This document shows positions 28,314-31,191 of a DNA stretch of 64,000 nt, piece by piece. The notes under the pieces were generated by a model, which worked only from the letters and a program-made list of their open reading frames with translations, searched no databases and had not been told where the DNA came from. The DNA is taken from contig RXJJ01000003.1 in assembly GCA_003963145.1 (NCBI GenBank), positions 300,146-364,145 on the forward strand, in the 5' to 3' direction. Position 1 is the stretch's first letter; each line of letters starts with the position of its first letter. Made by a program: the position numbers and the translations under genes. Source of the stretch: Bradyrhizobiaceae bacterium (GTDB taxonomy: Bacteria; Pseudomonadota; Alphaproteobacteria; Rhizobiales; Xanthobacteraceae).

Positions 28314-28388
28314 GGACCGCGGCCTGCGGGCCGACTACGCGCAACAGGAATGGTTGGGACAAGAACGGTTGGGGATCGGGCGGAAGTC

Positions 28389-29507
28389 ATGAAAGTTACG
28401 GTCGAACGGGCGCAACTCCTGAAATCACTGGGTCACGTCCACCGCGTGGTCGAGCGGCGCAACACCATTCCGATATTGGGCAACGTGCTGATCCGCGCCG
28501 AAAACGCGCGCCTCAGCCTCAAGGCCACCGACCTCGATCTCGAAGTCACGGAAACCTTGCCTGCCGAGGTCGCGACCAGCGGCGCGACCACCGTGCCCGC
28601 GCACATGTTCTACGACATCGTGCGCAAACTGCCCGACGGCTCGCAAATCGTGCTCGAAGGTGACGGCGATCGCTCGGTGCTGGCGATCCGCGCCGGCCGC
28701 TCGCGCTTCACGCTGCAGACGCTGCCCGAGAGCGACTTCCCCGATCTCGCCGCCAGCGACATGACACATTCCTTCTCGCTGTCGGCGGCGGACGTGAAGC
28801 GCCTGATCGACCGCACGCAGTTCGCGATCTCGACCGAGGAAACCCGCTACTACCTCAACGGCATCTATCTGCACAGCGCCGGCACGGCGAAGGCGGCGAC
28901 GCTGCGGGCGGTCGCGACCGACGGCCATCGCCTCGCGCAGTTCGATCTGCCGTTGCCGAAGACCGCGGCGAACATGCCGGGCGTGATCGTGCCGCGCAAG
29001 ACGGTCGGCGAAGTCCAGCGCCTGATCGAGGATGCCGAGGCCGAGGTCGGCATCGAGCTGTCGCAGGGCAAGATCCGTTTCACCATCGCCAATGTTGTGC
29101 TGACGTCCAAGCTGATCGACGGCACCTTCCCCGATTACGCCCGCGTCATTCCGCAGAACAACGACAAGGAACTGATCGTCGACAAGAAGGATTTCGAGGC
29201 GGCGGTGGATCGTGTCTCCACGATCTCGAGCGAACGCGGCCGCGCGGTGAAGCTGGCGCTGTCCGGCGGCAAGCTTACGCTGTCGGTGACCAATCCCGAT
29301 TCCGGCAGCGCGACCGAAGAACTCGAGGTCGAATACGCCGCCGATCCGCTCGATATCGGTTTCAACTCGCGCTATCTGCTCGACATCGCCGCGCAGATCG
29401 AGGGCGAGGTCGCCGTGCTGCGTCTGGCCGATCCCGGCTCGCCGACGCTGATCCAGGACAAGGACGCCAAGAACGCGCTCTATGTGCTGATGCCGATGCG
29501 GGTGTGA
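28389..29507 (+). CDS. dnaN: DNA polymerase III beta subunit (sliding clamp)
   Basis: The 372 residues start MKVTVERAQLLKSLGHVHRVVERRNTIPIL, run through three clamp domains (VATDGHRLA near the middle of the chain is diagnostic) and end with ALYVLMPMRV, the usual clamp C-terminus near the partner-binding pocket. The ring tethers polymerase III to DNA. The in-frame start at 28350 is not supported. The gene comes 273 bases after dnaA and 37 bases before the left repeat of the DUF559 cassette. Confidence 0.98.
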   Translation: MKVTVERAQLLKSLGHVHRVVERRNTIPILGNVLIRAENARLSLKATDLDLEVTETLPAEVATSGATTVPAHMFYDIVRKLPDGSQIVLEGDGDRSVLAIRAGRSRFTLQTLPESDFPDLAASDMTHSFSLSAADVKRLIDRTQFAISTEETRYYLNGIYLHSAGTAKAATLRAVATDGHRLAQFDLPLPKTAANMPGVIVPRKTVGEVQRLIEDAEAEVGIELSQGKIRFTIANVVLTSKLIDGTFPDYARVIPQNNDKELIVDKKDFEAAVDRVSTISSERGRAVKLALSGGKLTLSVTNPDSGSATEELEVEYAADPLDIGFNSRYLLDIAAQIEGEVAVLRLADPGSPTLIQDKDAKNALYVLMPMRV

Positions 29508-29544
29508 AGCTATCCCGCCACGGCATGATTGCGAGACTTGCTTT

Positions 29545-29600
29545 TTCCCTCTCCCCCTGTGGGAGAGGGTGCCCGAGTGAAACGAGGGCGGGTGAGGGGT
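29545..29600 (+). repeat. Left palindromic repeat of the DUF559 cassette
   Basis: It contains the hairpin CCCTCTCCC / GGGAGAGGG (29547-29555 with 29561-29569) closing a five-base loop, a variable middle, and ends GGGTGAGGGGT. That end provides GAGGGG, five bases before the ATG of the enclosed gene. Confidence 0.85.
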
Positions 29601-29604
29601 GCAA

Positions 29605-29976
29605 ATGGCACGAGAACCGCATCATCGTCCGGTCTCAATATCCACTCGCAGCTTTGCAAAACGCATGCGGCGCGAACCGACAGACGCAGAGGCGGCTATG
29701 TGGCGGCTCTTGCGCCATCGACAACTCGCTCATTTGAAGTTTCGCCGACAGGCACCGTTTCGAAGCTACATTCTGGACTTCGTTTGTTTCGAGGAACGCC
29801 TTGTCATCGAGATCGACGGCAGCCAGCACCTGTCCTCCGACCGAGATGGAGTGAGAGACGCCCTGCTGGTCTCCGAAGGATTCAGAACGGTTCGTTACTG
29901 GAATAACGACGTACTTGAGAAGCCTGCTTCCGTTCTTGAAGATATTCTTGCCAATCTTGACCGGGATGCCAGATAA
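29605..29976 (+). CDS. DUF559 (VSR/PD-(D/E)xK-fold) putative endonuclease
   Basis: The 123 residues match DUF559: RRPTDAEAAMW-like start (RREPTDAEAAMWRLLRHR), then FRRQAPFRSYILDFVCFE and LVIEIDGSQH. Asp58, Glu69 and Asp71 form the acidic cluster of a very-short-patch-repair-like nuclease fold, and FRTVRYWNNDVL is the conserved C-terminal block. Activity is not proven for most members. Translation probably starts at 29605, using GAGGGG of the left repeat; a GTG at 29599 lies inside that repeat. The stop (29974-29976) touches the right repeat. The gene lies inside the replication cluster but probably has no part in replication. Confidence 0.88.
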   Translation: MAREPHHRPVSISTRSFAKRMRREPTDAEAAMWRLLRHRQLAHLKFRRQAPFRSYILDFVCFEERLVIEIDGSQHLSSDRDGVRDALLVSEGFRTVRYWNNDVLEKPASVLEDILANLDRDAR

Positions 29977-30035
29977 CCCCTCACCCGGCTCGGGTTTTCA
30001 ACCCTCGCCACCCTCTCCCACAAGGGGAGAGGGAA
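29976..30035 (-). repeat. Right palindromic repeat of the DUF559 cassette (inverted copy)
   Basis: Read on the minus strand it repeats the left copy: CCCTCTCCC and GGGAGAGGG around CTTGT, then a different middle of about 20 bases, then GGGTGAGGGGT. It overlaps the last base of the DUF559 stop codon and ends 19 bases before the recF start. Confidence 0.85.
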
Positions 30036-30054
30036 GTACGTCAGCGTCTTCCCC

Positions 30055-31191
30055 ATGACCGTCTCCCGAATCCTGCGCCTTGGCCTGACGCATTTCCGCA
30101 ATTATCGCGCGGCGTCGCTGCAGACACCCACCGATCTTGTCGTGCTGGTGGGGCCGAACGGCGCGGGCAAGACGAACTGTCTCGAAGCCATCTCGTTTCT
30201 CTCGCCAGGACGCGGGTTGCGCCGCGCCACGCTGGAGGACGTCGCCGACAATCAGGGCGACGGCTCGTGGGCGGTGTCGGCCGAGGTCGAGGGCGAGGTC
30301 GGGCTCGCCACGCTTGGCACCGGCATCGACGCGCCGCAGGAGGGTGCATCCACGGCCCGCCGCGCACGGATCGACCGCGAGCCGGTCTCGTCGCCTGCCG
30401 CGTTCGGCGATTATCTGCGCATGGTCTGGCTCACGCCGTCGATGGACGGACTGTTCATGGGACCCGCCTCCGAGCGGCGGCGCTTTTTCGATCGCCTCGT
30501 GCTCGCCATCGACAAGGATCATTCCGGCCGCGTCTCCGCGCTTGAGCGATCGCTGCGCTCGCGCAACCGTCTTCTCGAAGAACGCAATTTCGATTCGCAC
30601 TGGGCCGACGCCATCGAGCGCGAGACCGCGGAGCTCGCCGTCGCCGTCGCCGCGCAGCGCGGCCACACCGTGCAGCGCCTTGCGGCGGCGCTCGCCGCGC
30701 GCGGCGCGGGATCGCCTTTTCCGTCGGCGCAGATTGCACTCGACGGCTGGATGGAAAACGCGCTTCTGACCGAAACCGCCACCGCGGTCGAGGATCGCTA
30801 CCGCGACATCCTGCGTGAGGGGCGCGCACGCGATGCCGCCGCGGGGCGCACGCTGGACGGACCGCATTTGACCGACCTTAACGTCGTCTATGCGCCGAAA
30901 AACATGCCGGCGCGCGACGCCTCGACCGGCGAGCAGAAAGCGCTGCTGATCGGTCTGGTGCTCGCGCATGCCGGCCTTGTCGCGCAGATGACCAGCATCG
31001 CGCCGTTGCTGCTGCTCGACGAGGTGGTCGCCCATCTCGATCCCGGCAGGCGCAGCGCCCTGTTCGGCGAACTGGAGCGTCTCGGCACCCAGGTCTGGAT
31101 GACCGGCGCCGACCCCGCCGCGTTTGCGGACCTCGGTTCACGCGCCGATATATTCGACGTCGATGGCGGCAAAATCGCACGGCGGACATGA
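30055..31191 (+). CDS. recF: DNA replication and repair ATPase RecF
   Basis: The 378 residues contain an SMC-like ATPase head: Walker A GPNGAGKTNCLEA, RRRFFDRLVLAID, the ABC-type signature STGEQKALLIGL and Walker B LLLLDEVVAHLD. RecF helps load RecA at gaps with RecO and RecR. The ATG at 30055 is close behind the right repeat of the cassette and has no evident Shine-Dalgarno, so insertion of the cassette may have altered its translation or transcript. gyrB follows after 287 bases. Confidence 0.97.
   Translation: MTVSRILRLGLTHFRNYRAASLQTPTDLVVLVGPNGAGKTNCLEAISFLSPGRGLRRATLEDVADNQGDGSWAVSAEVEGEVGLATLGTGIDAPQEGASTARRARIDREPVSSPAAFGDYLRMVWLTPSMDGLFMGPASERRRFFDRLVLAIDKDHSGRVSALERSLRSRNRLLEERNFDSHWADAIERETAELAVAVAAQRGHTVQRLAAALAARGAGSPFPSAQIALDGWMENALLTETATAVEDRYRDILREGRARDAAAGRTLDGPHLTDLNVVYAPKNMPARDASTGEQKALLIGLVLAHAGLVAQMTSIAPLLLLDEVVAHLDPGRRSALFGELERLGTQVWMTGADPAAFADLGSRADIFDVDGGKIARRT

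Follow-up and report, generated by a model that had tools for sequence, protein, structure and literature searches.

The spacer between dnaN and recF in a 64 kb stretch of DNA from a Bradyrhizobiaceae bacterium (contig RXJJ01000003.1; the whole stretch is called the window below) holds a compact unit, outer span 29545-30035, in which a single DUF559 gene lies between two inverted repeat arms. Stand-alone DUF559 genes are associated with such arms, the arm sequence co-diverges with the DUF559 protein and the subfamilies have their own arm variants. Judged by their sequence, the window arms match the plan of the Escherichia coli BoxC repeat (later PIT and TM, for triplex motif), that of a purine-motif intrastrand triplex. 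Neither this plan nor the subfamily-specific variants had been recognised in an earlier reading of the window (the first-pass annotation). The partnership of gene and arms is well supported; what the data show is bracketing, inverted orientation, co-divergence, mirror covariation, co-occurrence, gene-less pairs, presence and absence at particular addresses, purifying selection and conserved catalytic residues. Since DUF559 accompanies TM repeats in many other bacteria, the family is probably the missing partner of the BoxC/PIT/TM repeats. We consider it rather probable that the unit is a repeat-partner element of the REPIN/RAYT kind, combining a Vsr-type nuclease with triplex arms.

The only open reading frame (ORF) between the arms in the ORF list of the window (ATG 29605, stop 29976) matches DUF559 (PF04480) with 122 bits. 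The outer arms, at 29545-29571 and 30009-30035, form an inverted pair with 96% complementarity over 27 nt; the inner pair, at 29589-29600 and 29976-29987, measures 12 nt per arm and is likewise inverted, with 100% complementarity. The first-pass annotation had described near-identical inverted repeats around one nuclease gene, with an inner arm of 11 nt, and the absence of a transposase; both descriptions agree with these data, the ORF between the arms being DUF559 alone. Four nucleotides separate the left arm from the start codon, and the start of the right arm coincides with the stop codon. In the whole 64 kb the hairpin CCCTCTCCC-loop-GGGAGAGGG was found at the two arms of the unit and nowhere else, and none of 100 dinucleotide shuffles contained one. 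As single-stranded DNA, both arms fold better than their own shuffles (z -3.0 and -3.7). An insertion sequence or transposon defined by a transposase gene was rejected on the gene content between the arms. A defence system was rejected as well, PADLOC giving only a weak match (DpdF, 16 bits). An Rfam scan over 29400-30200 matched no family up to an E-value of 1.

Association of stand-alone DUF559 genes with inverted arms

A set of 29 genomes of the genus was analysed, with inverted-repeat scores taken over 220-nt flanks. DUF559 was present in 28 of them, with none to five stand-alone copies per genome. Two classes were distinguished, 49 stand-alone loci (113-148 bits) and 27 low-scoring loci in long frames (50-73 bits); three partial matches of 34-42 bits were left out of both. 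One stand-alone locus (L142) was unscored. Among the other 48, which represent 16 addresses (11 synteny clusters and 5 singletons), 43 had an inverted-arm score of at least 34, a cut-off chosen after an earlier look at the scores, and 46 lay above all of their own control windows (exceptions L163 and L174). None of the 65 other ORFs of the same loci reached this cut-off, nor did any of the 24 low-scoring loci examined, three of which were above their own controls; their fusion to other sequences was read from frame length, L004 alone being scanned. Consecutive inward-facing full-arm pairs of types A and B with a gap of 100-3000 nt were also read by hand in five genomes (G000, G013, G014, G020 and G021) and enclosed DUF559 in 5/5; one pair noted outside the genus (G059, C1138) encloses DUF559 as well.

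The arms vary with the protein they surround. Over 857 pairs of loci at different addresses (44 loci), protein and arm distances were correlated (Mantel r 0.553, p 0.0005, tree unmodelled), while the best of 2000 permutations gave 0.192. The genome of the window has four DUF559 matches, three of them bracketed by inverted arms with a different variant for each; because several variants occur within one genome, host base composition is not their cause. The fourth match is unbracketed and forms the C-terminal part of a SpoU-type methyltransferase (L004). At one chromosomal address in the genus, three DUF559 subfamilies were observed, with a separate arm type for each (L003, L143, L147, L148, L165, L175, L178-L181).

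Arms are also found without the gene. Window-type arms have 15 matches in their own genome, four inverted pairs among these being gene-less with 17-24 nt between the arms, and gene-less inverted pairs about 20 nt apart are present in relatives too. The four genomes with the gene at dnaN-recF contain 12-18 arms of the same type each, the unit's own counted, versus 16 and 21 arms in two, 1-6 in eight and none in fifteen of the 25 genus genomes without the gene at this place (Mann-Whitney p 0.0012). With 46 of 48 genus loci above their controls and gene-less pairs in existence, the first-pass proposal that DUF559 travels with its own inverted palindromic borders, in a RAYT-like partner role, is upheld. 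One arm variant was seen to form gene-less pairs (L261, G020:C1:481823-481956, and others like it) whose hairpins either face inward, about 20 nt apart, or face outward at a spacing of about 35 nt. Each such pair consists of one left-type and one right-type arm, and the outward form resembles abutted ends.

The DUF559 protein has a PD-(D/E)XK fold of the Vsr/EDxHD type. Its D, E, D and H residues, which are catalytic in nucleases of this type, are kept in 48/48 stand-alone genus proteins, and D58, E69, D71 and H75 are invariant across 35 sequences. The window gene is under purifying selection, with a median ratio of nonsynonymous to synonymous substitution (dN/dS) of 0.109 (36 units, 299 pairs). 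All 24 low-scoring loci examined have lost two active-site residues, the second D and the H. These low-scoring loci, 27 in the 29 genomes, occur at most once per genome. A 2005 paper lists YcjD among PD-(D/E)XK members and reports that its profile finds Vsr, and VsrA of Caulobacter is described as having a DUF559 domain and a functional link to a solitary cytosine methyltransferase (both papers, and the 2026 paper mentioned below, are among PMC12907096, PMC12817139 and PMC1189080).

Two wider samples gave a similar picture. In the 80 named relatives nearest to the window protein, a sample that by this choice favours its orthologues, the hairpin was found on both sides of the gene in 65, on one side in 15 and on neither in 0, versus 1/523 control windows. 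Of 54 loci from other genera of the same phylum (the better-scoring matches rather than all hits), 49 had a generic TM next to the gene and 25 of these had one on either side, which makes 74/108 flanks versus 7/416 control windows. Under a stricter rule (score at least 34 and above control) the other-genus loci gave 20/29 and, hand-counted, 13/25. Bracketing inverted repeats were also seen in Deinococcus, Sphingomonas (between sufB and sufC), Azospirillum and a Sinorhizobium record; a cyanobacterial case had a weak bracketing score, and E. coli DUF559 was not bracketed by the inverted-repeat score. The first-pass annotation held that DUF559 genes elsewhere without the repeat would refute its reading; this refutation failed, association being found at 46/48 genus loci and 49/54 other-genus loci.

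Gene and repeat co-occur across genomes. Among 200 genomes of the phylum, strong DUF559 (best E below 1e-15; 22 genomes with weaker matches counted as lacking it) was present in 46, the TM pattern in 43, both in 32 and neither in 143 (p 4e-17). Counted by family, the figures were 17/21 versus 4/35 (p 2e-7), and within families z was 4.3. Four genomes (G329, G350, G247 and G387) were noted with 38-123 TM repeats and no strong DUF559; their partner may be a different one or may have been lost. No paper linking DUF559 to BoxC/PIT/TM repeats was found among those listed in searches of the open-access PMC literature.

Triplex plan of the arms

Three blocks make up each window arm, the pyrimidine-rich X, its complement X' and X''; a small hairpin separates the last two. 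The plan was evaluated on 102 units, 80 of which had an arm score of at least 33; 151 arms were parsed from 79 of those. X'' was able to build L-1 or more antiparallel triads (G*GC, A*AT, T*AT) on X' in 114 of the 151 arms. Its fit was 0.917 to its own X', 0.831 to the X' of other arms and 0.713 to the shuffled region. When 64 asymmetric X'/X'' pairs, all of them distinct, were compared, X'' fitted a mirrored X' better than a direct one in 36, both alike in 24 and the mirrored one less well in 4 (p 1.9e-7); on these counts X'' as a direct repeat of X' was rejected. Because the mirror fit beats the direct fit, X'' tends to vary as the mirror of X', as a third strand requires, unlike what is expected of a protein reading duplex DNA. 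The arms may instead form a G-quadruplex, four G-runs being present in many of them, but this structure does not predict the mirror relation, which is retained in variants with GG-runs (L215).

About 20 nt separate X' from X'' in the window arms and 3-4 nt in several other arm types. As the spacing in the window arms exceeds the 1-6 nt loops of the published ITxF search, these arms are a long-loop TM variant. BoxC dates from the 1990s and PIT from 2000, both as cited in Holder et al. 2015 (PMC4666352), where the E. coli motif is reported to form a stable triplex in vitro. That paper reports BoxC/PIT/TM repeats in more than 260 genomes and describes instability at their sites, no mobility function being given, and it states that genetic-mobility activities were never found near TMs. 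The words DUF559, Vsr and endonuclease are absent from its main text.

Residence and turnover of the unit

The features of the unit and its two neighbours are collected in Table 1.

Table 1. Parts of the DUF559 unit and its neighbours, in window positions
Feature	Position	Strand	Basis
Left arm, triplex motif X - loop - X' - small stem - X''	29547..29600	+	sequence, complementarity, folding, 151-arm plan test
Left X, CCCTCTCCC	29547..29555	+	sequence; X' is the pairing partner
Left X', GGGAGAGGG	29561..29569	+	sequence, folding
Left X'', GGGTGAGGGG, mirror of X' save one A to T	29590..29599	+	sequence; mirror test
DUF559 (PF04480) gene, Vsr/EDxHD-type fold, conserved D, E, D, H	29605..29976	+	ORF, profile match, alignment, fold match
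Right arm, inverted copy of the left plan	29977..30033	-	sequence, complementarity, folding
Right X''	29977..29986	-	sequence, complementarity
Right X'	30011..30019	-	sequence, hairpin search
Right X	30025..30033	-	sequence, hairpin search
dnaN, left neighbour, context outside the unit	28350..29507	+	ORF, profile match
recF, right neighbour, context outside the unit	30055..31191	+	position and SMC_N match

The order dnaN-DUF559-recF was found in 57 of the 80 nearest named relatives, many of them Bradyrhizobium records, and this shared address makes the window copy an old resident. A recent insertion was rejected on the same count and on the purifying selection; the first-pass annotation had taken the unit to be inserted. 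The accompanying statement that dnaN and recF normally adjoin is true of most readable genus genomes, but many Bradyrhizobium records hold the unit between the two genes. Comparison of sister spacers, which had been proposed at the same time, was likewise divided: only 4 of the 27 genus genomes with both neighbours readable carry the gene, one of them (G019) with an in-frame stop, whereas the nearest named relatives are mostly occupied as stated. Arm remnants were recognised by eye in the spacers of G015 and G017, and the remaining readable genomes had neither gene nor remnants. Another palindromic repeat, with the core GTCATGGCCGGGCTTGTCCCGGCCAT, was seen in the dnaN-recF spacers of G010, G013, G018 and G041, all lacking the DUF559 unit.

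At another address, G042 (flanks 94-95% identical) and G043 lack a unit that G013 has, with both flanks continuing; G018 lacks it as well, and there the right flank also differs. The compared slots are filled with other short repeats, so that no junction is readable. The same intergenic slot in sister species was observed to contain a type A pair, a CCCTCCCC-type pair or unrelated repeats resembling miniature inverted-repeat transposable elements (L269-L279, around G013:C1:2330260 and 2332088). No clean empty site for the S. meliloti, Sphingomonas and Azospirillum units was found among the matches listed in the plasmid collection.

E. coli K-12 carries both members, the DUF559 gene ycjD and 23 TM motifs. 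On the 3' side of ycjD, which is located between sapF and fabI, there is a decayed hairpin at the gene end itself and, about 165 nt past the gene, a full TM; the palindrome upstream is a different one. The sapF-ycjD-fabI stretch was found in 3362 of 5426 genomes at no less than 80% of the query. An efflux operon occupies the place of ycjD in one inspected E. coli strain without the gene, and a 2026 paper describes an efflux operon at this place in E. coli; such a locus is therefore not a simple empty site. A stretch at the 3' end of ycjD, GAATATTCTCCAGCACCGTCTCC, recurs a short way downstream and resembles what is left of a second copy (L259:4325-4466).

Nature of the element and relation to known systems

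The association described above, which we regard as almost certainly real, suggests that the DUF559 nuclease probably acts on its arms, presumably by binding and cutting them; that it also mobilises them is a proposal to which we give even or slightly better chances. The natural substrate of this Vsr/EDxHD-type nuclease would be its own flanking triplex arms, each DUF559 subfamily being served by its own arm variants. In single-stranded arms, such as those exposed on the lagging strand, X would pair with X', and X'' would serve as the third strand of a purine-motif triplex, running antiparallel along X'; this single-stranded triplex would be the recognised form. The nuclease might recognise one such folded arm, or both inverted arms together, and then cut or nick the DNA. 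Repair or replication could next spread the bracketed segment in one of two forms, with the gene enclosed or as gene-less pairs, which would be non-autonomous and REPIN-like. A broader possibility, which we hold a little less probable than its opposite, is that TM repeats and stand-alone DUF559 genes form one widespread and unrecognised class of mobile elements, whose nuclease would read intrastrand triplexes of single-stranded DNA, not the sequence of a duplex, and would spread the gene and the gene-less pairs without a transposase.

Several observations weigh against a mobile repeat-partner element. The dnaN-recF copy is old and not a fresh insertion, no movement of the unit was seen in the compared genomes, and neither a target-site duplication nor a clean empty site was found in the compared slots, which hold other short repeats. 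G013 and G018 have 16 and 21 type A arms and no type A gene at dnaN-recF. The TM is missing on one or both sides at 29 of the 54 other-genus loci (on both at 5), 11 of the 200 phylum genomes have the TM pattern without strong DUF559, one of them with 123 copies, and 14 of the 46 DUF559 genomes lack the pattern. K-12 ycjD is bracketed in part only, which is expected of a decayed unit yet counts against strict bracketing. On the side of the structure, the triad criterion was missed by 37 of 151 arms, and the in vivo footprinting of Holder et al. (PMC4666352) showed no stable triplex. Finally, a role in mismatch repair has been proposed for the Caulobacter DUF559 protein VsrA.

One alternative is an ordinary host repair gene, acting in a process like very-short-patch mismatch repair, beside unrelated repeats that gather where insertion is harmless. 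The Vsr fold match and the link of VsrA to a solitary cytosine methyltransferase agree with it, but such flanks (score 34) were found at none of the 65 other ORFs and none of the 24 fused DUF559, protein and arm co-diverge, and stand-alone copies vary from none to five per genus genome, all of which makes this alternative very improbable. A policing or processing role, in which a structure-specific DUF559 nuclease removes or resolves triplex repeats that stall replication, would account for the co-occurrence of gene and repeats across genomes, for the purifying selection on the protein and for the greater variability of E. coli TM loci than of controls (Holder et al., PMC4666352). The cell would retain DUF559 because of its triplex repeats, and the arms would flank the gene for its regulation or as a sensor. 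We regard this as improbable, if less so than a plain repair gene, because it leaves unexplained the position of the gene between inverted arms in many lineages and the subfamily-specific variants, and because arms of the matching type are more numerous in carriers, not fewer.

The main rival is a homing-type drive. The nuclease would cut the unit-free allele or repeat and repair would copy the arm-gene-arm cassette by gene conversion, the arms marking self or blocking self-cutting and the spread being mainly allelic or from slot to slot rather than transpositional. But gene-less pairs at many addresses are left unexplained by allelic homing alone, and the window ORFs around the gene provide no intron or intein context; we therefore consider such a drive unlikely, though the least unlikely of these alternatives. 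If the repeat-partner reading is correct, it would give a reason for DUF559, a family without an assigned function that is scattered over several bacterial phyla. The partner nuclease would offer a testable object for the BoxC/PIT/TM question in K-12, where both members are at hand. If the triplex is what is recognised, the enzyme would be one dedicated to triplex DNA, and such enzymes are, to our knowledge, rare.

Compared with known systems, the unit shares with the TM/BoxC/PIT repeats the X-X'-X'' purine-motif plan; the known repeats are intergenic, present in many copies and in some cases arranged as inverted pairs (PMC4666352). The five close pairs of K-12 each consist of one type A motif and one of type B, and the window arms likewise differ in their inner stems, whereas the published ITxF search used loops of 1-6 nt versus about 20 nt and a small hairpin in the window arms (PMC4666352). 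E. coli YcjD and Caulobacter VsrA have the DUF559 family in common with the window protein. The homing endonuclease I-Bth0305I (PDB 3r3p), which has the EDxHD/Vsr fold, sits in an intron context, whereas the window unit has inverted palindromic borders and no intron context. With the REPIN/RAYT system as described in 2011 (PMC3116915) the unit shares inverted palindrome doublets, non-autonomous doublets, and a partner gene that lies beside a repeat variant of its own and evolves together with it. RAYT itself is an IS200/IS605-related transposase of the Y1 tyrosine kind. The differences lie in the Vsr/EDxHD-type nuclease fold of the window partner and in the triplex motif of its repeat. Membership in RAYT/REP was rejected because the DUF559 partner is not a Y1/HUH tyrosine transposase: the unit does not belong to the RAYT systems, even if it may function in a similar way.
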